From Miscanthus floridulus (taxonomy: Eukaryota; Streptophyta; Magnoliopsida; Poales; Poaceae): 64,000 nt of DNA. Location: NCBI RefSeq assembly GCF_019320115.1, contig NC_089584.1, positions 57,284,852 to 57,348,851 on the forward strand, given 5' to 3'. Position 1 is the first letter of the stretch; each line of letters begins with the position of its first letter. This document shows, piece by piece, positions 19,086 to 64,000 of the stretch. Both the position numbers and the translations under genes were made by a program. The notes under the pieces are model-generated. The model was not told the DNA's origin and ran no database searches. It saw only the letters and a program-made list of their open reading frames with translations.

Positions 19086-19107
19086 CTGAGTACGGGAATG
19101 TACTCAG
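19086..19107 (-). other. LTR hairpin 2 (Tk-2, 3' LTR)
   Basis: CTGAGTAC-GGGAAT-GTACTCAG on the plus strand: perfect 8-bp stem, 6-nt loop. The stem equals that of Tk-3 while the loop differs. Confidence 0.6.
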
Positions 19108-20120: not shown

Positions 20121-20460
20121 GCTCCGGGGCTTGCCTTTCAGGAATGAGGAAGGCTGGTGGTCAGGGCACTCGGGCAATTCCTCCGCGGCGACTGCTTCAT
20201 TGGCTTCCTGCACCTTGGGTTCCTCCTCCTGGTTGGCTCCCTCGAACTCCAGCAACGTCACTCCCTCCGGCACACCTATTGCATGAATGCGCAAGATAAA
20301 TATCATGGATGCACATGTACGAATGTCGGGGATGCTCGGGGAATGCACATGTTCGCTGTAGTTAGCATATTCCAACTTAAGCCCTATTCAAATCACTTTC
20401 ACTTACCACGTTTATACAACCTAAGGTATAATTGCTCATCTTCTGTTAATGACCTAGCAC
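20121..20460 (-). CDS. Two-exon small acidic protein inside the 3' LTR of Tk-2
   Basis: Exon A 20460-20407 (54 bp) lies between a CAG acceptor and a GTAAGT donor; a 131-bp intron follows; exon B starts at 20275 after ATAG. Spliced, it reads TEDEQLYLRL...GVPEGVTLLEF, then a Glu-rich stretch (EGANQEEEPKVQEANEAV), AEELPECPDHQPSSF and LKGKPRS. Against Tk-1, changes in exon A and early exon B are mainly synonymous, including Leu codons swapped between CTT and TTA/TTG. That is what selection on a protein leaves. The first exon and true end are not known. No known domain; acidic and soluble-looking. Confidence 0.5.
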
Positions 20461-23333: not shown

Positions 23334-24707
23334 TTATAGCCCTCCCCCCTTATAAAAATCTCGTCCCAAGATTTGAAAAGCGTACCATTGTTGATAGAAT
23401 TCCTTATAACCATCCCTCAAATAGTCTTCCCTTTCCCACGTTGCATCGCATTCACTACCCTGATTGCTCCACATGACTTTATAGAACTTGACTACCCGAC
23501 TCCGAGTCACTCGCTCACGAGTGTCAATCACTCGAACCAGCTTTTCTTCAAAGGTCAAATCTGAATTTAACTCGATATCCCCCAATGGAACTCTCTCTTT
23601 AGGGACGCGAAGACATTTCTTCAATTGGGATACATGAAAGACATTGAAGATAGCACTCATCTCAGGAGGTAATTGAATCTTGTACGCCACTTTACCACTT
23701 TGTCCAATGATTTCAAATGGACCAACGTATCTCGGCGCAAGCTTTTGCTTCACACCAAAGCATTGGACACTTTTCATAGGTGAGACTTTCAGATATACGA
23801 AGTCTCCAACTTTGAACTCAATAGGTTTTCTACGTCGATCAGCATAACTTTTCTGCCTAGCTTGAGCTGCGGCCATGTGGGTTTGGATAGTATGGACATG
23901 TTCTTCAGCTTCTTGAATGAAATCAATTCCATAATATCTCCTTTCACCGGCTTCTACCCAGTTCAACGGGGTTCTACACTTCCGGCCATACAAAGCTTCA
24001 AACGGTGCCATCTTTATGCTCTCTTGATAACTATTATTGTACGAGAATTCAGCTAGGGGTAACCATTTTTCCCATGAGCCCTTAGCCGAGATGACACAAG
24101 CTCTTAACATATCTTCTAAGATTTGATTCACCTGTTCAGTTTGCCCATTGGTTTGCGGATGATAGGCAGAACTTCTTACGAGCTTAGTCCCTAATAATCC
24201 ATGTAAGTGCTCCCAAAAGCGAGCAGTGAACTGTGGTCCTCTATCTGAGACAATAGTATGAGGGATCCCATGAAGTCGGACTATCTGGTTGAAGTACAAC
24301 TCCGCGTAGTCGGTTGGATGAAAGTCTATGCGGACAGGAATGAAGTGTGCCGACTTGGTCAGTCGGTCCACAATTACCCAAATTGAGTTAAAATTCCTCT
24401 GTGTGGTAGGGAGTCCAACTATAAAATCCATACTTATCTCTTCCCATTTCCAACCTGGAATAGAGAGTGGCTGAAGTAATCCAGCTTTCATGTGCACAGC
24501 CTTGACCCGACAACAAGTGTCACACCTAGCCACATAAGCGGCTATCTCTTTCTTCATTTTGGTCCACCAAAATCGAGGCTTTAAATCATGATACATTTTA
24601 CTACTACTAGGATGAATAGATAGTTTAGAGGAATGAGCTTCGGATATGATTTGATTTCTAAGCTCTCTATCCTTCGGAACTACCAACCTATCCTTGAACC
24701 ATAACAC
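23334..24707 (-). CDS. pol: Integrase with C-terminal chromodomain (Tk-2 pol, open part)
   Basis: An uninterrupted 457-codon frame. Zn finger: H25, H32, C62, C65. Catalytic core: D94 (SMDF), D155 (VSDRG), E191 (QTEQVNQ), a D-D-35-E spacing. GPF module at 329-331. Chromodomain about 385-437 with aromatic Y409, W413 and W424, the kind of residues that form a methyl-lysine cage in chromodomains. Integrase inserts the cDNA; the chromodomain is known to guide chromoviruses to marked chromatin. The frame then runs through the polypurine tract (FYKGGGL) and stops at a TAA inside the first bases of the LTR. The Met at 24707 is internal; the protein is part of a polyprotein. Confidence 0.9.
   Translation of the reverse strand: MLWFKDRLVVPKDRELRNQIISEAHSSKLSIHPSSSKMYHDLKPRFWWTKMKKEIAAYVARCDTCCRVKAVHMKAGLLQPLSIPGWKWEEISMDFIVGLPTTQRNFNSIWVIVDRLTKSAHFIPVRIDFHPTDYAELYFNQIVRLHGIPHTIVSDRGPQFTARFWEHLHGLLGTKLVRSSAYHPQTNGQTEQVNQILEDMLRACVISAKGSWEKWLPLAEFSYNNSYQESIKMAPFEALYGRKCRTPLNWVEAGERRYYGIDFIQEAEEHVHTIQTHMAAAQARQKSYADRRRKPIEFKVGDFVYLKVSPMKSVQCFGVKQKLAPRYVGPFEIIGQSGKVAYKIQLPPEMSAIFNVFHVSQLKKCLRVPKERVPLGDIELNSDLTFEEKLVRVIDTRERVTRSRVVKFYKVMWSNQGSECDATWEREDYLRDGYKEFYQQWYAFQILGRDFYKGGGL
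23339..23351 (-). other. Polypurine tract of Tk-2
   Basis: Reads AAGGGGGGAGGGC in element orientation, directly before the 3' LTR. Confidence 0.88.
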
Positions 24708-26203
24708 GCCTTCCTCATCTACTCAAAAATGTTTGGTTTCTTGCTCTTTCATCTTGCGCTTGATGTGAAACACACCTGTATCTGTCTTCTGTAGCTCAAT
24801 AATTCAACTCTATAGAGTACAACTAACAGTGATGTTGTGCAGGACTGCAGGATGAAGGAGCTTTGACAAATGGACATCACTCTCAATCAATGAGTGGCAA
24901 TGAGACTTTCTGCTTAAGGCATCCGCGATGATGTTTGCCTTACCAGGGTGATAGTGCACTTGAAGGTTATAATCCTTGATCAACTCGAGCCATCTTCTCT
25001 AACGCATATTTAACTCTGGTTGAGTGAAGATGTACTTGAGACTTTTATGATCAGTGTAGATGTTACACACATTACCAAGTAGATAATGTCTCCAAGCCTT
25101 CAAAGCATGAACAACTGCAGCGAGTTCCAAGTCATGTGTTGGATAATTCACTTCATGCTTCCAAAGTTGGTGAGAGGTATAAGCGATGACTCTACCCTCT
25201 TGCATAAGAACACCTCCTAACCCAATACCTGATGCATCACAGAACACATCAAAAGGTTTCTCGATATCCGGTTGTGCCAAAACCAGAGCCGATGTTAGAA
25301 GAGTTCGCAGGGTATGAAAAGCCGCATCACACTTAGGAGTCCAGACAAACTTCATGTCTTTTTGCAGCAATCGAGTCATAGGCTTGGCTATTTTAGAGAA
25401 ATCTGGGATGAAGCGACGATAATAGCCAGCCAACCCCAGAAAACTCCGAACCTCATGCACCGAGATGGGAGCCTTCCAGTTCAATACTTCTTGCACCTTG
25501 GTGGGATCAACCATAATTCCACCATCGGACAACACGTGTCCAAGAAAAGGTACCTCATGAAGCCAAAATTCACATTTGCTGAACTTTGCATACAGATGGT
25601 GTTCTCGCAATCTAGTAAGAACCACTCCGCAAATGTTCAACATGATCTTCTTCATTCTCAGAATAGACCTAGGATATCATCTATAAATACCACCACAAAT
25701 TTGTCCAACTCAGGCATAAACACTGAATTCATTAGATACATAAAATGTGCGGGGGCATTGGTCAATCCAAAAGACATAACCAGGTACTCATATAGACCAT
25801 ATCTTGTAGAGAATGCAGTTTTTGGGACATCCTCAGGCCAAATTTTGATTTGATGATACCCAGATCTCAAATCAATCTTGGAAAAGACTTTTGCCTTAGA
25901 CAACTGATCAAATAAGATATCTATGCATGGCAGAGGGTACTTATTCTTGATTGTAACTGCATTCAAGGGTCTATAATCTACACACATGCGTAGAGATTGA
26001 TCCTTCTTCTTCACAAAGATGGCTGGGCACCCCCACGGAGATGAACTAGGGCGGATAAGGCCTTTCTTTAGCAGTTCATTCAACTGGGTCTTAAGTTCAG
26101 CTAGTTCATTAGGAGGCATTCTATATGGCCTTCTAGAGATGGGAGCTGTACCAGGAAGCAACTCTATCTTGAATTCTACTTCTCGATCCGAGGGGCAATC
26201 CAA
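24708..26203 (-). pseudogene. pol: Reverse transcriptase and RNase H of Tk-2 pol
   Basis: The upper part (26203-25658) holds [49 protein letters not shown] and [10 protein letters not shown] with both catalytic Asp, then loses frame straight after. The next part (25655-24999) has [55 protein letters not shown] and a TAG where relatives have Gln (NMR-stop-RRW). The end of RNase H and the linker to integrase (24998-24708) carry further stops. Otherwise motifs are the best preserved in the window. Confidence 0.88.
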
Positions 26204-26723
26204 GGCAAATCATCGGGAAAAACATCCAGAAAGTCACACACGACAGGGATATCTGCTAGAGACTTTGCTTGCACCACATTGGTCGTGCAAGAAAGATTGA
26301 TGTCCCTGGGTAACTGTACTAGAAAACCCTCCTGATTGCTAGGATCTCTAAGCATAACTACCCTAGTCAATGTATCGATAAGCACTCCATGATGGCTCAT
26401 CCAGTTCATTCCCAATATCACATTCGATACCTAGCCCTCGGTAAAATTACCAGATCAACCTGATAACTTCGCCCCTCTATCACAAATTGTACATCCCCAA
26501 CTACCAGCTTGGTTGGGATAATACCACTGGCAGCCCTTATACAATAACCCTCACCCTCAATAGTATATGTTTTCTGCATAAACTTGGATGCAAATGATGG
26601 ACTAATGAAGGAATGCGAAGCACCTGAATCAAATAGTACAACTGTGGGGTGTTGGTCAATCAGAAACTTACCGGCAGTCACTACCTCTCCTGAAGGAATC
26701 TCAGTAATATTAGTGTGGTTCAC
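26204..26723 (-). pseudogene. pol: Aspartic protease of Tk-2 pol
   Basis: The active site LFDSGASHSF is intact, followed by FASKFMQKTY and a beta-rich part ending VDLVILP. A frameshift near 26420 precedes ILGMNWMSHHGVLIDTLTR. Another near 26190 leads into RT. It cuts Gag-Pol in the particle. Confidence 0.87.
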
Positions 26724-27752
26724 TTGTCCCTGACGGCCACCCTGGTAATTATTCTTCTTAGGGTAAGGGCATTCCCTTGCCCAGTGGCCTGTCTTGTTGT
26801 AGTTCTAGCATGGCATGTTGCTTGGTGGAGCCCTAGAACTGCCCTGACTGGTAGTGCCCTTGGGAAGAGCAACTGTAAATGCCTTGCGGAACCTCGTCTT
26901 GGCGGGATTCTTCTTCTGCGGTGGGCGAAACTTGGCGGCTGACGCTGGAGGATGAAATGGAGTCCTTTGTGCGACGGGAGCCTTAGATTGTGAGGCACCC
27001 GCCTCATAGGCCCTCTTATGACTTTTCGAAGCCGCATATACAGCATTGTTGTTCTCTTGCGATAAAGCATCACTTACAAACTCATTAAAATGAGCGCACT
27101 TGCAATTTCCCATGGTCTTCATTAGTTTGGGGCTAAGTCCCCGCTTGAAGCTTGCAATCTTCTTGGCATCTGTGTCCACAAACTCGGTAGCATACCTTGC
27201 AAGGTTGTTGAAAGCTTGCAGGTATTCAGTCAGGCTCTTGTTTCCCTGAGTCAGCTTCATGAACTTTGTATGTTTGATCGCCATAAGACCAGGAGGAATG
27301 TAATTTCCCCTGAAAGCAGACTTGAATTGATCCCAAGTGATTTGGGCATTAGCAAGCATAGTGGACCGATGATGACTCCACCAGATGCCAGCAGGCCCAT
27401 GAAGTTGGTGCGATGCGTACTCAGTTTTTAGCACCTCAGTCAAGTGGAGCAGATGGAACTTCTGCTCGAGAGTATTCAACCACTCATCAGCTTGTAGAGG
27501 CTCCTCAGCCTCCTTGAAGATTGCCTCCTTGAAGATTGGGGGTTTCGTGTCAAGGAAATCCTTGAAATCACTATATTGATTTGGATCTGGTCCTTGTCGT
27601 GGACCACGGCCATCACGATTCGCAATCGTACGGAGGGCCTCAGCCATAGTGCGCTGTCCTTCTACAAGCATTGCTATTAGTTCTGTTGGTGTGGGTGGTG
27701 GTGGCGGAAGATCATCATCATCACTCGCACCGGTGGAACGAGTACGAGGCAT
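26724..27752 (-). pseudogene. gag: gag of Tk-2, one stop in the zinc knuckle
   Basis: Begins MPRTRSTGASDDDDLPPPP; I prefer this Met because Tk-1 and Tk-3 start gag at the same place. Capsid motifs: ADEWLNTLEQKFHLL, GIWWSHHRSTML, NYIPPGLMAIKHTKFMKL and FKRGLSPKLMKTMGN. The basic linker (SKSHKRAYEAGASQSK) leads to the knuckle, where the second codon is TAG and the second Cys is Tyr; GHWARECPYP follows intact. Both changes are G-to-A, the opposite-strand trace of C-to-T. Confidence 0.9.
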
Positions 27753-28045
27753 CTGCACAATGCACAACCAGTAATTATTGATGATGTCAGCACATTGGAG
27801 AGGAACAATATAATCAGTGCCAAACTGTATTTACTGATGAGAATGAAAGCTTCATACAATAAACAGAGGCAATAATTTATTCTCCAATCACCACATCATC
27901 AAGTAGATTACTAGCGCCATACTGCAGTGCATTCCAACATGACAAGTTTTAAACTTCACCATATGATATGCATCCCGAAGGGAATGAATTAAAGTACATT
28001 ACAAGTATGACTGCAAAAGCTTAACTAGTGAGACTTGCTAACGAA

Positions 28046-28170
28046 CTACTCGTCGAAGTGATCACTGTCCACATCGGAGACACCTTGGACTTCTTCTGGG
28101 TATTCCTCTCCTTCTAACTTCTTGCCGAGAGATTTCACTTTATACTTGGGATAAGCAATTATAAGGGAGG
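28046..28170 (-). pseudogene. ORF0 remnant of Tk-2 (last about 30 codons)
   Basis: Ends GEEYPEEVQGVSDVDSDHFDE before TAG at 28046-28048, similar to the end of ORF0 in Tk-3 (acidic, then SNLDSEHVED). Just upstream the sequence is already the 5' leader (compare TATAAGGGAGGGAG here with the leader of Tk-3 near 53075). About 1 kb of ORF0 is therefore missing by internal deletion. Confidence 0.65.
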
Positions 28171-28877
28171 GAGTAATGCAATATGAATGTCATGAGTGAA
28201 TATGATGCATGCTCGTTCCGTACTTCCTCACAAACCTAAGAAAATTTAAGCTTTAGCGGACTATACGGTGGCATACATACGTTCTCTCAATTAGCGGTAA
28301 CTAGTCGATCTACACTGGTGCGTTGTTAGCGTACCTGCAGAAAAAACTTCATTGCAGCCCAATCCCAACAAGATATAATGCTAATTACACAAGTAGTACT
28401 AAGATACTCTCCATATATACATCCCCCGATATATATACTTCAGGCATCCCATACTACCCTAAGAAATGTACCCACAATTAAGTACTTTCATATATACATG
28501 TATGCAACATGTAAATACTCCTAGTAACCACAACTAAGCTCTCCCCTAGACCGACTGGTTGGACGGTCATGCCTCTCACAACTCACACTTACCTTAGCGT
28601 AGAGGCAATTGATCCATACATTACCATTCAAACGAATGGCATCCATGCAATATCACGCCGCATGGACGACGAAATAGAAACAATCAATTCCCCCAGTTAG
28701 TAATTATATATAAGCCACCTAGAAGTCCTTAAGTGGGCTATAAGGGATGTGATCACCAGTATACCATAAAAATTTTGATTTTTGAACACTTATATATAAC
28801 TATAAGTTTGAAAACCACTTTTAACAACAAAAGCTTTTGTTTTAAATAGCCGTAAGACATGTTTAATGTTGAATCTA
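28171..28877 (-). other. 5' leader of Tk-2
   Basis: Non-coding between primer site and ORF0 remnant. Shares the block CGGTGGCATACATA...GTTCTCTC with the leader of Tk-3. Packaging or dimerisation signals would be expected here but none is identifiable by eye. Confidence 0.6.
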
Positions 28878-28890
28878 GCTCTGAATACCA
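28878..28890 (-). other. Primer binding site of Tk-2 (initiator Met tRNA)
   Basis: TGGTATTCAGAGC on the minus strand, two bases after the 5' LTR end. It equals the usual initiator-Met site TGGTATCAGAGC with one extra T. Confidence 0.88.
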
Positions 28891-29340
28891 GCTGTCACGG
28901 AACCGACCAATTTATAAGAGCACAAGTACAAAAACAATCGCCGAAACGATCAAATTCTCGAACTTGAGCCCATATAAACCCGGTAGTCAACCGAAATCTC
29001 GAAGGATTTCAAACCAACTTGCATACAACCAAGATCACAGTAATTCAACATAACATATCATACAGTTACAACATTTTGCTAGACAGTTCGCAAATAGATT
29101 ACATCATCACAGAGTCATCGTTATTACAAAACAAGTCTTGTAAACATGCTGGAAGCAAATAGTTTAACTCACACACCGAGTTCAAATACACATACTGGTT
29201 TGCTGATCACAGACCGCAAAAGCATTCAGATAAGAGAAAGGAGATCATGCCCATGATCTAGTCCTCATCACCCGCCGGGTGGAGACAATACTTGTAGAAT
29301 CCTGATATAGGAGGTCATCTGCAACAAGAGGGAATAAACC

Positions 29341-29362
29341 CTAAGTACGGGAATGTACTCAG
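29341..29362 (-). other. LTR hairpin 2 (Tk-2, 5' LTR)
   Basis: CTAAGTAC-GGGAAT-GTACTCAG on the plus strand, the same stem with one mismatch. Confidence 0.55.
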
Positions 29363-30381
29363 CTAGACTTACCCGTCGAAAACCAAACAAATGACACCAA
29401 GGATTATGCATAGCTTAATGTAGTGGAGCTAGGCTGACACTTTCTTTTTGCATAAAAGCATAAGTAACTAATGATCAACTCTTAACCTGAACTAGCAGTA
29501 ACTTTTTAGCCATTAACCTGTCATCTATATTAGCACCTATACTAAGCAATCATTTTATTAGGGTGCAAACATTAATAACCATATCAGGTATTCATTGTGG
29601 CAACCTTATCATCATCCATTTAACCATATCGTTAAGTTAATTGAATCTACGTTGCCGCTGCTCAGTCAAGTTCTCACTATCCGGGAGAGACAGTGATTCG
29701 AATCGATTCCTATCCAGCTGGAGGGGTATTCCTAAACACAAACCCTGCTTCCCCCGTCAGGGTCGCAACAAGTCACCTTTGGTACAATTCAGGAGTCATG
29801 AGTCCGAACAGATCGACATTCTCAGAGAACCACTCTACCAAGGTTGTTCAGGACTCTAACCCGCCTTGGACTTATGCCAATGGCTCTCCGCACATCCTTA
29901 CTACCTCCAGAATGTTGCTCACTGCTCGCGTCCCCGGCCTGAGTCGAGCTACTAGGCTTCGCGGTCAGAACGACTTATCCGGCCAGCTAAGTGTTAGGCT
30001 GCATTCAACATGACATGAGGACGTGCAGCGTATCGGTCCTTAAATGACTCAGACGGAGTCACTATGTTCAAACCTACACAAGACCCCTGCCCGGTCTTAA
30101 TTCATTATTCACATGGTTCTTTTCCACGATAGCAAATATAGCCAACCGTGATCCACCTCATCCTAAAGCTCGCAGGTGACAGGAAATCACCTGACTTCTA
30201 CCGCACTAAGCATGGCTAAGCATTTAACCCGTTCCTGAACTTAAATAGGATTCCAGTGCGACATCTGGACAAGGAAGGATATATAATGCCAGCAATTGGT
30301 TCCAACCAATTCCTATACTTAATGCATCATCAACAATAAAAGATACTCAATGTATTTGTAAAACATGGGAGGCTTAATATG

Positions 30382-30721
30382 CTCCAGGGCTTGCCTTTCA
30401 GGAACGAGGAAGGCTAGGTGGTTAGGGCACTCGGGCAATTCCTCCGCGGCGACTGCTTCGTCGGCTTCCTGCACCTCGAGTTCCTCCTCCTGGTTGGCTC
30501 CCTCGAACTCCAGCAACGTCACTCCCTCCGGCACACCTATTGCATGAATGTGCAAGATAAATATCATGGATGCACATGTACGAATGTCGGGGATGCTCGG
30601 GGAATGCACATGTTCGCTATAGTTAGCATATTCCAACTTAAGCCCTATTCAAATCACTTTCACTTACCACGTTTATACAACCTAAGGTATAATTGCTCAT
30701 CTTCCATTAATGACCTAGCAC
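30382..30721 (-). CDS. Two-exon small acidic protein inside the 5' LTR of Tk-2
   Basis: Sister copy of the ORF at 20121-20460. Exon A 30721-30668 (54 bp) with GTAAGT donor; exon B starts 30536. Thr of the TEDEQ motif is Met here. The frame stays open through EGANQEEELEVQEADEAV and AEELPECP, then a small change alters the end. This copy sits in the 5' LTR, so it would be downstream of the element promoter in the genomic RNA. Confidence 0.45.
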
Positions 30722-33609
30722 CTGCACCTAAGCATATTCTCAAGTTAGGCTAACCCCTAAACAATCAACGAGAACATTGCAACCACATACACTCAAGCAA
30801 TTGTATTTCAGGCAAGATGAATACTATGTAGCGGTGCAGTAAACTAGCCATAACTGGAGATTTATAAATCCAAATGATATGCAACAAGACAATCTGGAAA
30901 GCTTATAAAATTGTCTACAATACATTTTCAGACCTCAAAGCATGATTCAAACCTTTACCAGGTCGAACTCATCGATCAACAGAGGTCTATCCTCACAAGG
31001 CAGAGAATAAGCAAAGACTGCAACCTAACTTTAAACAGCTGTAGTTTCTAAACTACTAGGCCAAATGCCCTCAAATTTTGACAAGAGCTAGCTACCTAAT
31101 TTATCTACAACTCTTGTATTCATCTCATTCACAGAAAACAAAATATCATGGGGAGCTTTCTAAAGTCCCTAGATCTGTCCAGAGGGACATAATGCAAATG
31201 AAATACTTAGTAACTCATGAGGTAAACATATAATTAGGACAACACTAAATATACTCACATGTCACACATATCACAAGAACACCAGAAAGTAGGGTGTTCA
31301 TCACCAAAACATTTCTTTAATACATTTCTTAATTTATTTAATTAATTAGGGGAAATAGTAAACATATATGCAAACTACCCCATTAATTCTACAAAAATTA
31401 CAGTATACATTACATGCTCTAAGTAGACTACCATAAAAATTTCACACCATTTGAGTAAGTATAACAACCTACACAAAAATGGTAAGGCAGAATGACTTAA
31501 AATGGCATAATTAGGAAACCTTAGTGAAAAGTGTCAAGCAACAGATTTCATATTTTTCCTAGCATCTATAAGGTACCTAGATACTACCTACCAAGTTTCA
31601 TGGCCATAGGATTCATAGATAATTTACTAAAATTCACACAAGTATCTTACCAATGATAAAAGGAAAATCTATAACTCAAAAACTACACATGCAATGACTC
31701 TCAAATTTTAACCAGAGCTTCTACTATACAAGACTAGCTTACCCACAAAATTTCATAATTTTTGGATCACAGAAACTCAAGATATGGTTTAAACAAGTTT
31801 GCATGCATTACAAAAACACTTTTCAAGTTCCTATTTAATTCATCCAAAATTTCTACATAATATGCTCAAGACATATTTTTCTTAAATACTAGACCTAACT
31901 GTGAGTCTCACAAAATTGGAACCATCCAATTTGGATCTACATAACAGGAGATACAAAAATATCAAATCAGCATTCAAAACTGCATTTTTGAACTAGCCCT
32001 ATGAACTACACAGTCACTGACGTGTGGGACCCGGCCGTCAGCCGGACCCACTGGTCAGCGACAGCGAAGCAGGGGAGGCGGCTGCGACGCGCGGAAGACG
32101 GCGTAGCTCGCCGGTGGCTACATCACCGGTGATGCGGAGGGTACCTCCGTGCTCGCTATGATCCTACCGCGTCAAATGACCTACTAACTCTAAGCTCTAG
32201 CAGACTCGAGGTAGGGCGACCATGGCGCATGGCTGCTCGGCGGAGCTTCGGTGGTTCGGCTCAATGGCGAGACGGCGACGGCAACCGGATTAGCACAATC
32301 TCAGGGCTATGCCGAGTTTCCCCATCCCAATGTGAATCTAGTGCACCCCCCTAAGGACCCACGATGGTCGGAGATGGGCCGGCCATGGTGACGGGCTGCG
32401 GCGGCAACATTCCGACGAGGCTGTGCGTGGCGGGAAAGCTTACCGAGCGCGGCTAGCAAGCAACCTTGGGTGCGATGCGACGGTGGATACGCGGAGGAGC
32501 TAAGGCAGTGGTGAATGGGCAACGAGGCGCGAGCTTGCTCGACGAGGGCGGAGCTGATCAGCGACAATGGTGGAGCTACGACTTCTCTATTACTGCGCTC
32601 GGTGGAGGCGACGGAGGAGCAGAGCGCGCGGGCGAGCAGGCAGGCAGTAGTGCATTTCCCATTTCAAGACGGCCAGCGCGCGGTGCGGTCAGGGCGAGCC
32701 GAGCGCGTGGCAGACACGTGGCGGCCGGTCTCTATTGCCGATCGGCCATGACCGGTCTGAAGCTCGCGTTTCAGCGTTCATCGAGTCTGACTAACAGGCG
32801 AACTTTGACACCGATTAACTCCTAAACCGTGACATATTAGAAGAAACAATGAACATGAAAGTTGTAGCCCGTACTTCCATCTTCAATTTCTATTTAAGTG
32901 CCAAGGACTAATTCTCAACGAATACAGAGTAAAATCGAGCCAAAGTCAGCTCCTTCAAACTATAATTGCAATCAATACTTAGAAAAATTCTTAAGTGAAG
33001 AATCAGCCCTGATTTCTGGCTTGTGGGCCCAAATTGAACATGTTGTGCACATTTTCATGAGATGGCCATAAAATAACTTTTGTTCCTTACATATAATTCT
33101 CTACATCTTTGCTTTAGGTTGCTCAGACATGCAAACATCCTAAGCCACACTTTTTAAACAGTCAAACAAAGGAGTTCTAGGGGTCAAATTTGGTCAACCA
33201 TGACTTGGAAACCTAATTAGTCAATGTGACCAATAAGAACAATGTTCCAAATGACATTCTATGTGTAACTAAGTTACTTACAAGTATTTCTAGCCACACC
33301 ATGCATTGATCACACAAGAATCAATCAAGGTATGTACTGAAACAATGAAAAACCCAAGAAATGTTGCAAATGTTTCATGATCTTGTTGCATAGTATTAAC
33401 TAATCTTGTTTCACTAAGTGAGTGGCACATGTTGCACTTAAGTGTTGCACACTTTACATTTCATAAAAGAACAACACACATGAAATATACAACATGTTGC
33501 AATGTTTCGAAATTATGTTTCATGTGCTATAAGTTCACGAAGGGATGCATGATGCTCATGTTCATGAAATGCAGTGCAAATGTGGAAGCTAAACACCAGG
33601 GGTGTTACA

Positions 33610-53033: not shown

Positions 53034-53215
53034 AATGGATAAGAGTTACATAACCGAGTAAGAGATTTATAAGGGGAGGAATAATGCAAGTATGTAATAA
53101 TGATGATTTATCATGATGCATTCACATTCCGTACATGCTCACAAACTTATAAAAATTAAAACTTCTATGGCATATGCGGTGGCATACATATGTTCTCTCA
53201 TATATAACAGTAACT
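53034..53215 (-). other. Part of the 5' leader of Tk-3, with the Tk-4 target duplication
   Basis: Matches the Tk-2 leader (CGGTGGCATACATATGTTCT). The last five bases, 53211-53215 (TAACT), are the left target duplication of Tk-4; Tk-2 has TAACTAGTCG at the same place, so the missing part should start with AGTCG or similar. Confidence 0.75.
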
Positions 53216-56200
53216 TATAACACCCCGGGTGTTTAAATATTAAAAACATGACATGTCATCATATGCATTGCAAGGCGATTGTTCATATTACAAACTTTGA
53301 GATGCATACACTAAAACAAGTTTATATTCATGTGGTATGTGGTGAATTGTATTGTTTGACTCAAGTTCAAAGTTTGTTTGATTTTGAATTTTTCGTGAAA
53401 ACCCCGATTTTCAGCATTTAAATCCTACCCTGAAAATCCATTTCAAAATCTATGCATATTTTGGGGTTGAGTCCAAAAGCAAAAGTGTAGAGCTTGACAA
53501 GTTAAGAAAAGTTTGTTTTTGGAATTTTCAAGTTGTTTAGTAAAATTTGGAGTAATTCAAAAAGGCGTAATTCATTAAATTTCCCCATTTGAATTCAAAA
53601 GTTCATTTCAAAATCTAAACCTGAATTAGGAGTTGGTTATAAAAGCAAAGTTGTAGAACTTTTGATTTTGAACAACTTTTGTTTTTGGAGATTTTTGAGT
53701 TGTTATGAAAATTTGAGAGTAATTTGTGAATTTTAGCGAAATGGCAAACTTGTAAATACTGTGAACAGTGTTCACCGCCGTAACTACACCGCCGGCGACC
53801 TTCGGTTCGCTTCAAGACACACGCGTGGACGTCCTCGGCTTCGCTGCTAGGGGTGGGAAAGGCTCCTGCGTGGCTTCCTTGTGCTTCTGGCCACTCCTTA
53901 AGGCCTAAGCCATCGCCGTTCTTCGCCGTTTCCCTCCCTCTGTTTTCCCGGCGCCGTTGCCATAGCTCCGTTGAGCTTTTGCCATCGAACCAGCACCCGC
54001 GCCATCACAGCAAAGCATGTCCCAGCTCTGCTAGTTCCTTACGTGTCCAGCAAACTAGTCCTTATGGCTTGTCCTCACCAGAAACTCGCGGTGCACGCTC
54101 TTCTTCCTCACGGCCGGCAGTGTCCCCATCGCGAGCGCTTCGCCGTGGCTAGCGTGTTACAGTGATCCTCTGCCCCTGCTGAGTCTTGTTTCAGCTTCAC
54201 CACAATGTTGTAGTCCTCCATGACCCATTGATTTCTCATTTTGACCACCACAGCTCTCGGAACATCGCCACCGACGATGATCTGCTCTGCCGTGCTTGCT
54301 CGGAACATCGACCCACCTCTCCATTGCTCCTCCGGCCTTATGCTCTACTCAGTCACGTTTGGGGTGAGCTGCTGTTGCTTCCTAGGCCTTCTGTTTAAGC
54401 TGTACAGGTCTCACATCACCGGCGTAGCGCTGCCATGCCACCGCGTCCACCATGGCCGACGACGGGCTAGTATAGGGCCGTAATCAGTGCTGATAGGGAC
54501 GTCAATCGATGCGCCTAGTCCTTAGGTGATCATTTTTGTACTTTGGCCATCGCCGTTGGACTCACCGTCGACTGAGTTTATGTCCGGTCAGCGCCGTCGC
54601 CAGTCGTGGTCAAACACGCTGAGGTTAGGGATGACAGGTGGGGTCGGGTTGTCAGTGACTCAGCGTTCAAATGGATTTTTTCTATTTTCATATTTGAATG
54701 AATAGTGATGTAATTTGTTATTTTTGTGTAGATTTATTTAGAGCTCCAAAAATTATGAAAATTTTTGTGTGACTTCTCTGTGATGTATATTATTTAAGAA
54801 AAATATGAAATAATATTTTTCAGGTAATTTTTGAATGTGATAAAAATTGCTCAATTTATTAATAAATGGATTTCCATGATTTTTCTAGGCTTATTTATTT
54901 ATCCAAAAATTATGAAATTTGTTTTGCCACTTAGTTATCATGTAATGAACATTTACTAAAATTTTGAGCTCAATTAGAATAAGTTGATTTATTTCATAAT
55001 TTTGAATTAAATAATTAATTCATAAAAGCAAATTGTAACATTTAATGAATTAGGTTTTTGTTTGAATTTTTGATTGAGTGATGTCCTTGGGTGATTAGTT
55101 GATAATGATCCTTAGCAATTAATTTGGGTGTTGCTGAAAAAGGTTTGATTAGTTTAACTTGCCGTTGTACCACGAAGGAAAGTTGTATTCAAATTCTTAA
55201 TTTTTGCATCCATCATCGTGCATCATGTTTTGTATTCCACATCATGTTAAACATGACATTGTTACTACGTGTAGTGAACGAAGGTGAGCACGTGGTAATT
55301 AATCAAGTTGTTGAGGAAGTTAATCCGTCTATTGAGGTCGGATCGAATACTTGTGAAACGTCGTAGGAACCGAACTTTTCCGTCAACGAAGGCAAGCCCC
55401 GGATGCATACAACCCTACCTTGTATTTTACTAAATTGATTTCGCTTTTGCTTCTTTTTACTACATTAAGTGATTAGGAGTCAAGTACAAGTCAAATTGGT
55501 ACATTACCCACCTTGTTATTCCATAATTACATATTACCAGTTTTAAATTCGTATATGCCTAGTTATGCTTAGCTATGCGTAGAACGATGAAAGTCAGGTG
55601 ATTACCTGTTACCTGTGAACTTTAAGCAGGATTTGATTAACTTATATTATCATGTGATATGGGAATGTGGAGTAATAAATCTAGACCGGGCGGACTCGGT
55701 GTGTGTGAGCCATAAGACATGGAGGTCTTGTGAGCAGGTTCTTTCCGCCTGTGTCGATTAATGCACGTTTGTTGTTGAACTGTGTGCGGTGAGACTTTGT
55801 AGTACTAACCACATACTCTGGTAAGCCTAAACTTGGCGATTCTATTACGAGAATGGCTACTCGCGCACTGGGAGTGGAGAGATGGCGGGAATAGCGTGTA
55901 CCCACGTGGCAATGGGCTAGATTGGTGGAGTACTATATTCTTGGGTGGCGCGGACCCATTCTTGCTTTAGAGGATCCGAGAGTAGGTTGATATATGTAGG
56001 TCGGGGACCTGCATATGTCATGTGGTCTGGAATCCCCAGCTGGGTTTAATTAGGTTCGAATCGTCATTGCTCCTCGGTTATGGAGACTCACTTCTCTGTT
56101 CATTCATCGTAGTACTAATAACTAGAACTCGAATAAGGCATGTGAAGGTGTTGGATATGAAGTTTCATGATCTCAACATAGGATCAGTGTCAGCTTTATA

Positions 56201-56789
56201 TATGATTTTATGAAGTTTTCTATATAAAGAATTTTGTTAAAGAGCTTTTACGCAAAAGAACTTTTATTATTGTTAAAGCCATACCTTGAATCCCATGAAC
56301 CGGCATTCCTAAGTTCTATCAGTTTTATTTCGGTTAAGTCTTGTTGAGTACTTTTGTACTTAGGGTTCATTGACCCTTGTTGCAGGTGAGCCTCATGAGC
56401 AGATCTGTTTTGGATCATGCTGCATGATAGTTGTACCTTGTGATGACGATGAGAAGTAAATGTGTGGCCCTTGGGTAAGGGCCGTTTCATTGTGTGTTTT
56501 GTATTATATTATAATGCCACTCCACTATTTCATTTTTTAATAAACATTGAACCTAGTTGTGAGGTTTGAAACTACTATTTTGTAAATTATGTTATTGTAA
56601 GACTTCCGTTGTTTTTACTCTGGTATTGATGTTTGAATAAATGTTGTAATACTGCAATGACTCTGTAACATGATCCTGCTTGGAAATCATGGATGATTCA
56701 GGATTCCCCGAGGACACCCGACAGTCTTCTTAAGTTACCAGGAACATATGCATAAATGTGGGCCCTATAACTTAGGAGGTTCTGCCACA
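53216..56789 (+). repeat. 5' LTR of Tk-4 (3574 bp)
   Basis: Starts TATAACACCCCGGGTGTT (the 3' copy starts TGTAACACC) and ends TTCTGCCACA. GC-rich block 53770-54660 with a few short frames that have no recognisable domain, then AT-rich to about 55240, hairpins at 55596-55614 and 56344-56363. A short coding-like piece 55260-55366 (VVNEGEHVVINQVVEEVNPS) precedes a GGCAAGCCCCGGA block, as in the other LTRs. Confidence 0.92.
56344..56363 (+). other. LTR hairpin 2 (Tk-4)
   Basis: TTGAGTAC-TTTT-GTACTTAG: 8-bp stem using two G-U type pairs, loop of 4, followed by GGGTTCATTGACCCTTGTTGCAG, as in the other LTRs. Confidence 0.55.
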
Positions 56790-56792
56790 GAA

Positions 56793-56804
56793 TGGTATCA
56801 GAGC
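56793..56804 (+). other. Primer binding site of Tk-4 (initiator Met tRNA)
   Basis: TGGTATCAGAGC, a 12/12 match to the usual site, three bases after the LTR. Confidence 0.93.
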
Positions 56805-57137
56805 GATCGTTGCAAGGTTTTTGTTGTATTGTTTTACAAAAGCTTCAAATTTATTTCTTTCTCCCTATTTTGTATTTGATTAAAAAGGTTTTGTGTGGTG
56901 TAGTAGTAATATTACTATGCCCTATATAAAAATAAATGTTGTTTATGTGCATTATAAACTTTGATGTTTTTGGTTCGTAAGAACGATTCATGCATCATTA
57001 TTAATTCACTCATTACTTCCTTCACCTCTTAGTCTAGAGTTGAGTAGTGAGACTGGTTTGAGTAATGTAATCCATCATAGCTGCTCTTTAGACTTTGATC
57101 AAATGGTCTTACTTGGATTAAATTGGCTTCCTACAGT

Positions 57138-57705
57138 ATGGCTCGTACCAAGATGATGCCCCATAAGTCCACTGGACTCAAAGGAGTTCCTCGTCACCAA
57201 CTTGCCCCTAGAAACGATGGTGCTAGCAGTAGCAATTCTAGGCCTGATCCCCAAGTAGAGATACAGATGATTTCTAGTAGAGTTAGCATAAGCTACTAGA
57301 GATAGGGCTTTGGATGCTATATAGCTAGGAGAATTACAGGATCAATTGAGGCGTCTCACTACCGCACATAGGAACTATGAAAGCATGTTAGTTCGTACAG
57401 TGGAGGGATGAAATGAGGCTTGGCATAGGGAAAATGTAGCTAGAGCTAGAACTCATGAGCTAGAATTCTATGTAGAAGATTTAGAAGAACATAATACTTA
57501 TCTGCATGAGGAAGTTCATAGGCTTAGTAATCTGCTAAATCCCAATCATGAGCCCCAAGCTGATGCCATGGACCCCAGTGTCATCTTTGCTGATGATAAC
57601 GAATCAGAAGAGGAAGAAGAAGATCATGAAGAATTAGTAATGATCAATGAAAGTGATGATGAAGGCAGTAATAATTCTAGAATGGATACCGAGCCTGAAG
57701 TTTGA
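57138..57705 (+). pseudogene. ORF0 of Tk-4: histone H3 tail-like N-terminus, coiled coil, acidic tail
   Basis: From ATG at 57138 the protein starts MARTK, then KSTG, K, PR and QLA. Without Met, A1 R2 T3 K4, K9 S10 T11 G12 and K14 fall at the exact H3 positions; PR-QLA is shifted by one residue. H3 R8 is His. A Ser-rich linker follows (GASSSNSRP). A TAG, then a frameshift near 57300, lead to a coiled coil (LGELQDQLRRL, ELEFYVEDLEEHNTYLHEEV) and an acidic end (SVIFADDNESEEEEEDHEE, TEPEV). Two further stops lie inside. Not a histone: no histone fold follows. The likely role, mimicry of an H3 tail for chromatin readers or writers, is inference. Confidence 0.75.
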
Positions 57706-57882: not shown

Positions 57883-59085
57883 ATGCGTCGTACGTGGGGT
57901 TTGTATGTTCGTAGAACTTCGCAAGATGAGGATGGTATTCTAGATCCACCACCAGTTCCAACAAATCTAGCGGATGCTATAACAACACTTGTCAATGTGA
58001 TAGCTAAAAATTCCCGTTTGCTTCATGAGATCACTCTAAGTAATCAAAATCAGATGCAAGGAAACCGTGGTCATCACCTATAACAGACAGGAGGCTACAT
58101 ATGTTGAATTTTACAGACACAAGACCACCAGTGTTCACCAAGGCAGATGAACCATTGGAGGCTAATGACTGGCTTCGAACCATGGAGCAGAAATTTGACC
58201 TTATTCCATGCACGGAATATCAGAAACCTACGTTTGCCGCCCAGCATCTTAGAGGTGCAGCAAGTGCTTGGTGGGCGAACTTAGTGGCTATGCAACCAGC
58301 TGGCATTCCAATAACTTGGGCTGAGTTTCATACTACCTTCAGAGCCCATTATATCCCTGAAGGAGTGATGGCAATGAAGTTAGATGAATTCCTTACTTTG
58401 AAGCAAGGAGATCAAACCGTGATGCAGTATGTGGGAAGATTTAATTCACCTATCACAATATGCATCAGAACATGTCAATACTGATGCTAAGAAGAAGAGG
58501 TGGTTTATGAGAGGTTTGAATACCAAGCTGCAAACAATGATGATAACTTGCACCAATGTCACTTACCATGAGGCCGTAAATATTGCAATTGCTTCAGAGT
58601 CAAAGTATCGGCAGCATAAGGAGCTCAAAAAGAAAAAGAGTATGCCGTCTAGATCTTTTGGGGGAAATCAGAAGAGGCAAAGGGTGATTTATCATCCAGT
58701 ACATCATAATCGTCCTCCTTACCGTCCGCCACAGTCTTAAGCTGGGCAACAATCAAATGTCCATCCTACTATAACCTATCCGAACTCACAGTCAACCAAT
58801 GCTCCTGGTGGCAATGCTCCAATGTCCCAGGGTCACAACTATCCGTGTTACAATTGTGGAAGGACTAGTCATTTCTCCAGGGAATGTCCATATCCTAGGC
58901 AAGTTAATCAAAATTATCAGAAGGCCTCTGCCAATCAACAACAGGGTCAGGCACCAAACAAGAACCCCAATCAGAATGCTCAGAAGGGCAAAGATGAGAG
59001 GAAGACAGGATGGGTGTTCTATATTCAAGCTAGAGAAATTCCGAAAGGGGAGCCAGTGATGATGGGTATGTTTCCTATTGCCTAA
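57883..59085 (+). pseudogene. gag: gag of Tk-4
   Basis: Starts MRRTWGLYVRRTS, with a stop at 58081-58083, then ANDWLRTMEQKFDLIPCTEY, LRGAASAWWANLVAM, FRAHYIPEGVMAMKLDEFL; a frameshift near 58440; then FMRGLNTKLQTMMITC and a basic stretch (KELKKKKSMPSRSFGGNQKR). The zinc knuckle CYNCGRTSHFSREC is intact. More diverged from the gags of Tk-1 to Tk-3 than they are from each other. Confidence 0.87.
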
Positions 59086-59460
59086 TCATCCTGCAGTTAT
59101 ACTTTTTGATTCTGGCGCATCGCATTCATTCATCAATAGAACATTTGTCGTGAAGCATGAAATTTCAATTGGGGCAACAAAGGAAAGTTTCTTTATACAG
59201 TCGCCCGGGGGATGTCTGTGTACTAAGGAAATGGTATACCAGGTACCCATAAACCTAGGTGGGCATATTTTTCCCACTACCATGATTATCCTTAAGGATT
59301 AGGATATAGATGTAATCTTGGGAATGAATTGGATGTATCAGCATAAGGTTGTTATAGATGCTTTGAATAGGACATTAAGAGTAAGTTTGCCTGATAGTAA
59401 TTCTCAACTTCTCATCCAACTTCCAACCCTAAAGATCAGTGGGCAAGGTTTGTGCAACTG
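59086..59460 (+). pseudogene. pol: Aspartic protease of Tk-4
   Basis: Active site ILFDSGASHSF intact, followed by INRTFVVKHEIS. A TAG at 59300-59302 precedes DIDVILGMNWMYQHKVVIDA. A one-base shift separates it from gag. Confidence 0.85.
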
Positions 59461-60960
59461 CTGTCAAAGAGATTAGAGATATTCCGGTAGTGTGTGAATT
59501 TCTGGATGTGTTTCTAGAAGATATACCCAGGTCTACCACCTGATAGGGATGTCCAGTTTAACATAGAGTTGCAACCTGGAACAGCTCCAATTTCTTAGAG
59601 AGCTTATAGGATGCCACCTAAGGAATTGGCTGAGTTGAAGACTCAGTTACAAGAATTGATTGTGAAAGGATTTATTCAACCTAGTTCATCACCTTAGGGG
59701 ATGTCCGGCAATATTTGTGAAAAAGAAATATGAGACCCCTAAGGTTATGTGTTGACTATCATCCGTTGAATGAAGTGACCATCAAGAATAAGTATCCCTT
59801 ACCTTGGATAGATTTGCTTTTTGATCAATTGGCCGGAGCCAAAGTTTTCTCCAAGATAGATTTAAGATCAGGGTATCATCAAATTAAGATAAAGCCTGAA
59901 GATATTCCCAAACATGCATTTACCACAAGATATGGATTATATGAATACTTGGTAATGTCTTTTGGTTTGACAAATGCTCCTGCTCATTTCATGTATCTGA
60001 TGAACTCAGTATTCATGCTTGAGCTAGACAAGTTTGTAGTGGTGTTTATTGATGACATTTTAGTATATTCCAAGAATAAGAAAGAACATGCAGGAACATC
60101 TTAGGATTGTTCTGACCCGCTTGAGAGAACATCAACTATATGCCAAGTTCAGCAAGTGTGATTTTTGGCTTAAGGAAGTGCAATTTCTTGGACATGTCTT
60201 GTCAGCCAAAGGAGTTGTAGTTGATCCTAGCAAAGTGAAGGATAGTGCTTGATTAGGAAACCGCCAACCATAGTTCATCAAGTTCAGAGTTTTCTAGGAT
60301 TGGCAGGGTATTACCATCGGTTTATTCTAGATTTCTCTAAAATATCAAAGTCCATAACTGAATTGTTGAAGAACCAAGTTAAGTTTATCTGGTCATCTGA
60401 TTATGAAGAGGCTTTCTAGACCTTGAAAAGACTGCTGACTACTGCATCAGTATTAGCCCAACCTGATATTGAGAAGCCATTTGATGTGTATTGTGATGCT
60501 TTAGGTATTGGTATTGGATGTGTGTTGATGCAAGAAGGTCGAGTCATTGCCTATGTGTCCTAGACAACTTAAGCAACATGAAGAACACTATCCGACTCAT
60601 GATCTGGAGTTAGCAGCTATGGTTCATGCTCTAAAGATTTGGTGGCATTACCTGCTTGGTAATACTGTGCCATATGTATACAGACCACAAGAGCTTAAAG
60701 TATATCTTTACTCAGTCAAAATTGAACATGCGAACAAAGAAGATGGTTAGAACTGATTAAGAATTATGATTTGGAAGTACATTATCACCTGGGTAAAGCA
60801 AATGTGGTTGTAGATGCCCTCAGTCGCAAAAGTTATTGCAATTGTCTAGCAGTGAGAACAATGGGTTTGATGCTATGTCAAGAAATGGAGAAGTTGAATG
60901 TAGAAGTAATTCAACTAAGGTAGTTTGACCAACATAATTGTTGAAGCCACTATTCGAGAT
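59461..60960 (+). pseudogene. pol: Reverse transcriptase and RNase H of Tk-4
   Basis: RT open from 59730 to 60104: [18 protein letters not shown] (Arg to His in the first motif), [30 protein letters not shown]. Frameshift near 60095, then [17 protein letters not shown]. RNase [37 protein letters not shown], ending [13 protein letters not shown]. Several small indels, unlike Tk-1, where nonsense changes dominate. Confidence 0.87.
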
Positions 60961-62394
60961 CAAGTTATTGTTGCTTAGAAGGAAAACAAGGGTATAGCCC
61001 ATATCAAGGAAAGAGTCAAGAATGGAAAAGCAGAATGCTTCAGCATAGATGATGAAGATGTGTTATGGTTCAAGGATCGTCTGGTGGTACTAAAGGTTCC
61101 TGAGTTGCGGCAGTCAATTCTAGATGAGGCACATGCTACTAGGTTATCTATCCATCCTGGGAAAGTAACAAGATGTACCATGACTTGAAGCAAAGGTTCT
61201 GGTGGACTAAAATGAAAATAGAGATTGCTAGATATATAGCAAAGTGTGATACTTGTAAAAAGGTGAAAGCTATACATTTGAGGTCTGTTGGTGAATTACA
61301 ACCATTACCTATTCCATCTTGGAAATGGGAGGACATAAGTATGGATTTTATTGTTGGTCTACCCAAGACATCAAAGGGATTTGATTCAGTATGGGTTATT
61401 GTAGATCGACTAACCAAATCAGCACATTTTCTTCTAGTCCTAGAATACATATCCCACTATACGGTATGCCAAGATGTATTTAGAGCGAATTGTGAGTCTC
61501 CATGGAGTACCCAAGACTATTGTGTCAGATAGGGGTACACAGTTTGTCTCCAACTTTTGGAAACTAATTGCATTCTTCATTGGGTACCAAACTTCTGTAT
61601 AGTACAGCTTATCATCCACAGACTGATGGATAGACTGAAAGAGTCAATCAAGTACTTGAAGATATGTTAAGGTGTTGTGTCCTTAACTATTCCAATAAGT
61701 GGGATGAGTGCTTACCTTTGGCCGAGTTCTCATACAACAATAGTTATCAGGAAAGCATTAGAATGGCTCCATTTGAAGCACTCTATGGTCGTAGACGCAG
61801 AACATCATTGAGTTGGTCGGAGCCTGGGGAAAGAAGATTCTTTGGAGTTGACCTTGTGAAAGAAACAGAAGACAAGGTTAGGCAAATATAGAGTAATTTG
61901 AAAATAGCTCAGTCCCACCAAAAGAGTTATGCGGATAGAAGACTGGAGACCATTGGTATTTAACAAAGGAGATTTTGTATATCTGAAAGTATCACCAATG
62001 AAGGGAGTTAACCGTTTTGGTGTTAAAGGAAAGTTGGCACCCCGATACATTGGACCATATCAAATTTTGGAGAGGTATGGAAAAGTGACATATCGCTTGA
62101 AATTACCTGAACATCTCGCAGCTATGCATGATGTGTTCCATATTTCTCAATTGAAAAAGTGTCTCTGAGTGCCTGAACAAAATGTTGAAGTTGAAGGAGT
62201 GGAACTAGAACCAGATTTAACTTACTCTAATATCCTATCTGAGTGTTCAGATCAGAAAGATCAGTGTTACTCGAAGATGGACAATCAAGTTCTATAAAAT
62301 ACAATGGAATCAACATTTAGAAGAGGAGGCTACCTGGGAATCAGAAGATTACTTATTAGAAAAGTTTCCAGAGTTTCTAGCGTCAATATAGAAT
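60961..62394 (+). pseudogene. pol: Integrase with chromodomain (Tk-4 pol)
   Basis: Zn finger: DEAHATRLSIHPG...AKCDTCKKVK, all four ligands present. Catalytic: SMDFIVGLPK, IVSDRGTQF, and a Glu after a TAG (YHPQTDG-stop-TERVNQ). Then [20 protein letters not shown], the GPY module ([10 protein letters not shown]) and [10 protein letters not shown]. The chromodomain (62273-62394) reads TIKFYKIQWNQHLEEEATWE, then SEDYLLEKFPEF, and ends at TAG; Tyr, Trp and Trp are at the same places as in Tk-2. Frameshifts near 61440, 61560, 61950 and 62230. Confidence 0.86.
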
Positions 62395-62545: not shown

Positions 62546-62560
62546 TTTAGGAGGAAGGAT
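62546..62560 (+). other. Polypurine tract of Tk-4
   Basis: TTTTAGGAGGAAGGAT immediately before TGTAACACC. Purine-rich but different from the G-run tract of Tk-1 to Tk-3. Confidence 0.75.
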
Positions 62561-64000
62561 TGTAACACCCCGGGTGTTTAAATATTAAAAACATGACATG
62601 TCATCATATGCATTGCAAGGCAATTGTTCATATTGCAAACTTTGAGATGCATACACTAAAACAAGTTTATATTCATGTGGTATGTGGTGAATTGTATTGT
62701 TTGACTCAAGTTCAAAGTTTGTTTGATTTTGAATTTTTCATGAAAACCCCTGATTTTCAGCATTTAAATCCTACCCTGAAAATCCATTTCAAAATCTATG
62801 AATATTTTGGGGTTGAGTCCAAAAGCAAAAGTGTAGAGCTTGACAAGTTAAGCAAAGTTTGTTTTTGGAGTTTTTCAAGTTGTTTAGTAAAATTTGGAGT
62901 AATTCAAAAAGGCGTAATTCGTTAAATTTCCCCATTTGAATTCAAAAGTTCATTTCAAAATCTAGACCGAATTAGGAGTTGGTTATAAAAGCAAAGTTGT
63001 AGAACTTTTGATTTTGAACAACTTTTGTTTTTGGAGATTTTTAAGTTGTTATGAAAATTTGAGAGTAATTTGTGAATTTTGGCGAATGGCAAACTTGTAA
63101 ATACTGTGAACAGTGTTCACCGCCATAGCTACACCGCCGACGACCTTCGGTTCGCTTCCAGACAGCACGTGTGGACGTCCTCGGCTTCGCACTGGCGTGG
63201 GAAAGGCTCCTGTGTGGCTTCCTTGCGCTTCTGGCCGCTCCTTAAGGCCTAAGCCGTCGCCGTTCTTCGCCAGTTTCCCTTCCTCTATTTTCCCGGCGCC
63301 GTTGCCATAGCTTCGTTGAGCTTTTGCCTATCGAACCAGCGCCCGCGCCATCACAGCAAAGCATGTCCCAGCTCCGCTAGTTCCTTGTGTGTCCAGCAAA
63401 CCAGTCCTTGTGGCTTGTCTTCATCAGAAACTCGCAGTGCGTGCTCTTCTTCCTCGCGGCCGGCAGCGTCCCCGTCGTGAGCGCTTCACCGTGGCCAGCG
63501 TGTTACGGTGATCCTCTACCCCTGCTGAGTCTTGTTTCAACTTCACCACGATGCTTGTAGTCCTCCATGACCAATTGATTTCTCATTTTGACCACCATAG
63601 CTCCCGGAACCTCGCCACCGACGACGATCTGCTCCGCCGTGCTTGCTCGGAATGTCGACCCACCTCTCCGTTGCTCCTCCGGCCTTGTGCTCTACTCAGT
63701 CACGTTTGGGGTGAGCTACTGTTGCTTCCTAGGCCTTTTGTTTAAGTTGTATAGGTCTCATGTCACCAGTGTAGCGCTGCCATGCCACCGCGTCCGCCAT
63801 GGCCGATGACGAGCTAGTATAGGACCATAATCAGTGCTGATAGGGATGTCAATCGATGCACCTAGTCTTGGTGATCATTTTGGTACTTTGGCCGTCGCCG
63901 TTGGACTCACCGTCGATGAGTTTACGCCGGTCAGCGCCGTCGCCATCGTGGTCAAACACACGAGGTTTGAGGATGACAGGTGGGGTCGGGTTGTTAGTGA
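62561..64000 (+). repeat. 3' LTR of Tk-4, first 1440 bp
   Basis: Starts TGTAACACCCCGGGTG and follows the 5' LTR closely to the window end, with scattered C/T and G/A changes and small indels in the GC-rich block. Confidence 0.93.

Follow-up and report, generated by a model that had tools for sequence, protein, structure and literature searches.

A histone H3-like N-terminal tail on the 5' accessory protein of a Tekay-type chromovirus from Miscanthus floridulus

A degraded LTR retrotransposon of Miscanthus floridulus carries an accessory reading frame, ORF0, whose product begins like the N-terminal tail of histone H3. The resemblance had been proposed in an initial annotation of a 64,000-nt stretch of DNA (NC_089584.1, 57,284,852-57,348,851; hereafter the window), and it proved to lie where it had been placed, to go far beyond chance and to be present in relatives of the element. 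The ORF0 product is not a histone, but a retrotransposon accessory protein with a histone-tail-like N-terminus, and this resemblance to a host chromatin protein suggests that the element imitates host chromatin. Judged from the sequences, the tail, be it derived from H3 or an imitation of it, probably engages host proteins that bind the H3 tail.

The element is located on the forward strand of the window (Table 1). Its LTRs, compared over 53215-54658 and 62560-64000, are 93.5% identical, and the string TGGTATCAGAGC at 56793..56804 is presumably a primer-binding site of the tRNA-Met type. According to Pfam, gag, protease, reverse transcriptase and integrase follow each other in this order between 58044 and 62388 and end in a C-terminal chromodomain, i.e. 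the arrangement of Ty3/gypsy chromoviruses. ORF0 lies between the 5' LTR and gag on the sense strand, which is the position of the 5' additional ORFs (aORFs) of Tekay elements. The name Tekay stems from the initial annotation; on sequence grounds it is backed by one of the two motifs given for Tekay chromodomains in the accessible part of the source (PMC3350952), as EEXTWEXE is present as EEATWESE in the frame 62221-62388, whereas (K/R)-X-(L/T)-R-X-(k/r) was not found by eye in this decayed frame. Elsewhere in the window, an ORF0-body remnant (EVHRLNNQLN-like, E 0.037) can be seen at 255-365 in another chromovirus at the left edge, the start being outside the window. Direct repeats about 10.26 kb apart flank a minus-strand chromovirus (18831-33473); as they are 95-99% identical, this element is young and its LTRs are long. 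No H3-like tail was seen in the leader of either minus-strand element of the window.

Table 1. Features of the ORF0-bearing element, in window coordinates
Feature	Position	Strand	Basis or remark
5' LTR	53215..56792	+	3' end inferred from primer-binding site
Primer-binding-site-like TGGTATCAGAGC	56793..56804	+	exact string, single occurrence within the window
Splice-acceptor-like CCTACAG	57130..57136	+	directly 5' of ORF0 ATG; candidate acceptor
H3-like N-terminal tail of ORF0, 25 codons	57138..57212	+	translation, H3 alignment, PDB search
ORF0 first frame: tail, serine-rich linker, then out-of-frame run to stop, 53 aa	57138..57299	+	
ORF0 body, second frame, three in-frame stops, acidic end	57277..57705	+	
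Gag piece	58044..58481	+	Pfam Retrotrans_gag 1.3e-15
Zinc knuckle piece	58741..59082	+	Pfam zf-CCHC 1.7e-5
Protease piece	59063..59299	+	Pfam RVP_2 2.3e-16
Reverse transcriptase piece	59721..60101	+	Pfam RVT_1 6.9e-24
Integrase zinc-binding piece	61143..61529	+	Pfam Integrase_H2C2 1.5e-9
Integrase C-terminal piece	61908..62165	+	Pfam SH3_Tf2-1 1.4e-26
Chromodomain, type II-like, cage mostly lost	62221..62388	+	Pfam Chromo 8e-6; cage read by eye
3' LTR	62560..64000	+	LTR match; runs past window end

The tail-coding stretch 57138-57212 (+) reads MARTKMMPHKSTGLKGVPRHQLAPR. Its 25 residues align with H3 from Met1, with 15 of 24 residues identical (the Met included) and a single one-residue gap, caused by one extra residue at position 15. 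The alignment confirms that, once the Met is removed, K4, K9, S10, T11, G12 and K14 stand in exact H3 register and that the PR-QLA block behind them is shifted by one residue. The window copy itself is a pseudogene with one frameshift and three stops, the tail frame being open from 57138 to the stop at 57299. Searched alone against 177635 distinct PDB sequences, this copy matches two entries at E <= 10. Both are histone H3, and the better one, at 0.32, is not significant by itself; as, moreover, the earlier reader had scanned for oddities, the resemblance might be put down to chance. However, composition-preserving shuffles reached the observed H3 score in 0 of 100000 cases for each of five tails (window copy, the relatives P0006, P0162 and P0166, and a majority-type peptide), and relatives are closer to H3 than the window copy, with up to 18 of 24 residues identical. 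Residues 1-60 of P0006, in which the tail is better preserved, have 121 PDB matches (best 0.0069; the best 60 of the 121 all H3-type) and 140 were obtained with a profile built from 13 divergent N-termini (best 3.4e-7; the best 60 of the 140 all H3-type), whereas the reversed P0006 control has five, the best at 0.67 and none a histone. By shuffles, PDB profile and clean reversed control, the H3 likeness lies beyond chance, and chance resemblance is rejected as next to impossible.

Relatives were collected with the C-terminal ORF0 piece, read in one frame with X at stops (194 proteins, the best 120 of which were used), with residues 1-60 of P0006 (58 proteins) and with residues 1-50 of P0166 (five). 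By a fixed spacing rule, which leaves out relatives with other spacings, 53 of the 167 collected ORF0 proteins have the full tail; among the best 120 of the 194 matches to the C-terminal piece it is found in 11, and many of the others start at later methionines. The 53 tailed relatives have K9 in 52 cases, K4 in 51 (two Arg), T6 in 51, T3 in 48, R2 in 44 (six His and one each of Cys, Gln and Leu) and R8 in 40 (eight His, two Cys, two Tyr and one Lys). H3 positions 5, 7 and 10 are variable, Pro being usual at position 7. The residue after the Met is Ala, Thr or Pro in all 53 tailed relatives, which suits removal of the Met, as the enzyme responsible demands a small residue at this place. Two divergent relatives, P0159 and P0162, start with ARTKQTARK, i.e. 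H3 residues 1-9 letter for letter, and are thus nearer to H3 than the window copy (18/24 vs 15/24).

Across divergent relatives K4, T6, R8 and K9 recur and the neighboring residues vary; R2, T6 and K9 are invariant in the 13 divergent N-termini. When a tree of 13 proteins was partitioned by segment, the tail had a relative rate of 0.31, as compared to 0.75, 1.35, 1.08 and 1.14 for the other segments, a comparison that is biased, since the exact words by which the relatives were picked up are for the most part within STGPKGVPRHQLAPR. This bias does not explain T6, R8 and K9, because words across these residues are broken by the variable neighbors. The best conserved block of the tail, GVPRHQLAPR, is only partly H3 and is located where the search words lay. 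Among 28 close relatives the residue counts per site are lower in the tail (0.72 singleton, 0.48 shared) than in residues 43-100 (0.88 and 0.79), which is suggestive only.

The genome from which the window derives (2.68 Gb, 2420 contigs) was searched both with the 53-aa tail query and with a tail-blind query, i.e. the P0162 body alone. The former had 3983 first-look candidates and the latter 11330; 150 copies were scored for each query and all 150 matched in both cases (at 29-42% identity for the tail-blind query), i.e. ORF0 is kept in many copies, as is typical of the 5' aORFs of Tekay elements. The worry that other copies might lack the motif came to nothing, as the tail is recognizable in each of the 69 tail-blind copies that were read out of the 150 (30 loci plus 39 other copies that have long open frames). 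It is readable in 67 of them, L089 and L120 having a frameshift inside the tail; in L071, L077 and L084 the tail is in a different frame from the body, and eight of the 67 have a stop at residue 20. These 67 copies contain K4 (67), K9 (67), K14 (66), S10 (63) and G12 (62) almost throughout, T6 in 51 (16 Met), T3 in 41 (26 Ala), R8 in 40 (16 His, ten Cys, one Tyr) and T11 in 28 (26 Val, 12 Ile, one Ala). With 53 tailed relatives and 69 of 69 genome copies, a peculiarity of one copy is ruled out.

By their tails the tail-blind copies are of the P0006 type, i.e. one ORF0 family was sampled without tail bias, and it is this one family whose ORF0 DNA was analyzed; a search with the P0155 body had matches at 29-36% identity only and yielded no loci. 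The start ARAK, with Ala for T3, occurs in 28 of 51 tail-seeded copies (L010-L060) and in 22 of 30 open tail-blind copies (from L091-L129), and a large lineage in this genome has therefore moved off the exact ARTK start. In viral contigs 12 stretches fit the tail pattern, none of which was confirmed by tblastn, and the exact DNA pattern was not found there. The single match in prokaryote contigs (L001) was rejected as fortuitous, its frame being full of stops.

The mismatches of the window copy at H3 positions 6 and 8 had been ascribed to CpG decay, and the codon variants across copies confirm this. In 30 of the 39 fetched tail-blind copies the tail is in frame with an open body (the nine with broken frames were left out), and these 30 have ACG (19), ACA (3) or ATG (8) at position 6 and CGT (21), CAT (6) or TGT (3) at position 8. 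The 51 tail-seeded copies have ACG (30), ATG (15), ACA (4), TCA (1) and TTG (1) at position 6, and CAT (36), CGT (14) and TGT (1) at position 8.

In the same 30 open tail-blind copies the ORF0 body has a pS of 0.274, a pN of 0.069 and a pN/pS of 0.25 (0.24-0.27); ORF0 is therefore a selected protein, under purifying selection. For the tail the values are 0.123, 0.070 and 0.57 (0.43-0.72), with a pN/pS of 0.71 (0.50-0.97) over codons 2-13, of 0.32 over codons 14-25 and of 0.89 (0.54-1.79) at sites R2, T3, K4, T6, R8 and K9. It is largely via CpG-type changes that the tail pN/pS exceeds that of the body. Without these changes it is 0.62 over codons 2-13 and 0.33 at the six sites, and the body has a pS of 0.230 and a pN of 0.055, as compared to 0.083 and 0.030 in the tail, i.e. 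the pN of the tail is about half that of the body and its pS is reduced even more. The tail-seeded copies gave 0.46 (tail) and 0.21 (body), values that were set aside, as these 51 copies were ranked by similarity to the window tail; we rely on the 30 tail-blind ones. A general lack of constraint, which would have spoken against the proposal, is not seen: the body is under purifying selection and K4, T6, R8 and K9 recur in relatives. But the tail has a higher pN/pS than the body and a low pS, and selection on the protein is one of several possible causes of its conservation.

As the pS of the tail is reduced more than its pN, part of the constraint may be on RNA. Thus, the tail might be the relic of an H3 5' end captured in the past, which is now kept by an overlapping RNA element serving splicing, packaging or translation start. 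The low tail pS, with or without CpG-type changes, would agree with this, as would an acceptor-like AG that precedes the ORF0 ATG (positions -3 and -2) in 78 of 81 genome copies, in 68 of them as TACAG. Nevertheless, the leader just upstream of the ATG is more diverse than the tail (0.155-0.190, ungapped, vs 0.035-0.052 over all tail sites), and an RNA element would not favor the retention of K4, T6, R8 and K9 among divergent relatives while the residues between them change. We regard this explanation as unlikely. The same AG bears on the way in which ORF0 may be expressed. Nine proteins are extended in frame upstream of the Met, and the last residues of these extensions are Tyr-Ser, Asp-Ser, Tyr-Arg or Tyr-Arg-Asp, all of which are compatible with an AG directly upstream. 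Since there are, in addition to this acceptor-like AG, seven ATGs in the leader upstream of the ORF0 start, expression from a spliced message is plausible.

In intact relatives the predicted ORF0 product comprises about 188 residues, arranged as H3-like tail, serine-rich linker, helical middle, which in some families is predicted to be a coiled coil, and acidic end. The acidic C-terminus of the proposed body layout is clear, whereas the coiled coil amounts to sub-threshold Pfam coiled-coil matches and to a heptad periodicity clearly above shuffles in four of ten ORF0 proteins (P0146, P0154, P0155 and P0162, but not P0006). Among the Pfam matches listed for these ten proteins (for one of them the best 25 of 62 families) no family exceeds the cut-off in the body, and no histone family, and hence no histone-fold domain, is found there or among those listed for two N-termini.

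That a chromodomain is encoded in the same element as the tail was likewise verified, the Pfam Chromo match being a narrow pass (26.1 bits vs a cut-off of 25.1). Read by eye from six weak alignments to solved chromodomains (best E 0.22, the first cage site unaligned), the Trp of the methyl-lysine cage is kept and a His is found at the later Tyr site, and the window chromodomain is therefore not expected to bind a methylated H3-like tail as HP1 does. Its sequence agrees with the seed-plant type II chromodomains, the binding partner of which is called unidentified in the accessible parts of the literature (PMC6317226; PMC12786077; PMC3350952). With tail and chromodomain in one element and no partner of the type II domains named in these reviews, the tail might dock onto the integrase chromodomain of its own element. 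However, the methyl-lysine cage is mostly lost, both by eye in the window and, as far as the source could be consulted, in the type as a whole (PMC6317226), and type II chromodomains also occur in those sunflower Tekay groups that lack a 5' aORF (PMC11728184, in part), making such docking very improbable.

Based on these findings we tentatively propose, at somewhat less than an even chance, that the H3-like tail of a Tekay-type accessory protein occupies the H3-binding site of host proteins, as a hook or as a decoy. ORF0 is the 5' accessory gene of an abundant chromovirus of the Tekay type; removal of the Met would expose A1-R2-T/A3-K4, and the protein would act in the nucleus. There, the tail may sit where host readers, writers or erasers of H3 marks bind H3, either as a hook, in the way of SNAG domains on LSD1, or as a decoy, in the way of influenza NS1. 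The element would thereby be helped to attach to chromatin or to weaken the silencing directed at it. A captured 5' end from an H3 gene of the host is the likely origin of the tail, as the match continues from Met1 for about 22 residues, i.e. beyond the contacts of most H3 readers. The best-kept H3 residues (A1, K4, T6 and K9, to which R2 and R8 can be added once CpG decay is discounted) are among those that an N-terminal H3 binder would contact, while Pro at position 7 is expected to hinder HP1-type H3K9 readers and the loose position 10 likewise speaks against these. Functional mimicry is weakened by several observations: positions 5, 7 and 10 vary, T3 is often Ala, GVPRHQLAPR is H3-like in part, the tail has a higher pN/pS than the body, its low pS points to a possible constraint on RNA, and seven ATGs come before the start. 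In a more far-reaching version, a group of plant chromoviruses would have adopted the H3 tail as a signal. ORF0 would then display unmodified or host-modified H3-like tails, which would recruit or titrate silencing proteins that bind H3 tails, or would be the partner that type II chromodomains without a cage are lacking, an imitation histone of the transposon's own making thus steering silencing or targeting. This version appears rather unlikely to us.

H3 tails also serve in nuclear import, and the basic tail might be an H3-type import or nucleic-acid-binding signal for ORF0 and its partners, with no imitation of modified chromatin. Lys and Arg are indeed the best kept tail residues in relatives and tail-blind copies alike, and a nuclear location is predicted for further 5' aORF proteins of Tekay elements (PMC11728184, in part). 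For such a signal any basic stretch would suffice, however, whereas order, register, the non-basic T6, T11/G12 and QLA follow H3, and we consider this explanation unlikely, too. Nevertheless, mimicry has serious rivals in nuclear import and in a cause at the RNA level. If the tail does bind proteins that read H3, plant retrotransposons of a very abundant class encode an imitation histone tail of their own. It could then be tested with peptides how these elements encounter heterochromatin and silencing, and this would possibly show what type II chromodomains bind (PMC6317226; PMC12786077, as far as accessible).

Plant Tekay elements are already known to have 5' additional ORFs (aORF/eORF; PMC11728184; PMC6317226). 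In the parts of these papers that were accessible, such ORFs are similar to ORF0 in being sense ORFs between 5' LTR and gag with alpha-helical parts and without a known domain, and differ in length, ORF0 having about 188 residues as compared to about 400 in sunflower. No mention of an H3-like start was found there, and the tail may stand unremarked in published grass aORF sequences. The systematic survey (PMC6317226), so far as its accessible part tells, applied a lower limit of 250 codons to the extra ORFs that it counted. The word histone is absent from the main text of PMC11728184, and both histone and Tekay are absent from the accessible part of a review of plant aORFs (PMC7264820); in the literature searched, as far as it was accessible, there was no description of an H3-like tail in a retrotransposon protein.

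With histone H3 itself ORF0 proteins share a Met1-aligned tail, up to 18 of 24 residues being identical in relatives, and they differ from it in that their listed Pfam matches include no histone family. SNAG domains, which are found on host transcription factors, resemble H3 much less in sequence than the ORF0 tail does. The SNAG domain of GFI1/SNAIL is an H3 mimic in LSD1 and, like the ORF0 tail, an N-terminal tail that mimics the N-terminus of H3 (PMC5896174, in part). Influenza NS1 imitates the H3 tail with a short H3-like stretch in the protein of a genetic parasite, as ORF0 would do; in NS1, according to the accessible part of the source (PMC12937675), this stretch is C-terminal and its binding is known, whereas the ORF0 tail is N-terminal, longer, part of a retrotransposon and known from its sequence. 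Taken together, histone mimicry as such is already known, and its occurrence in a retrotransposon accessory protein looks new, provided that binding is shown.
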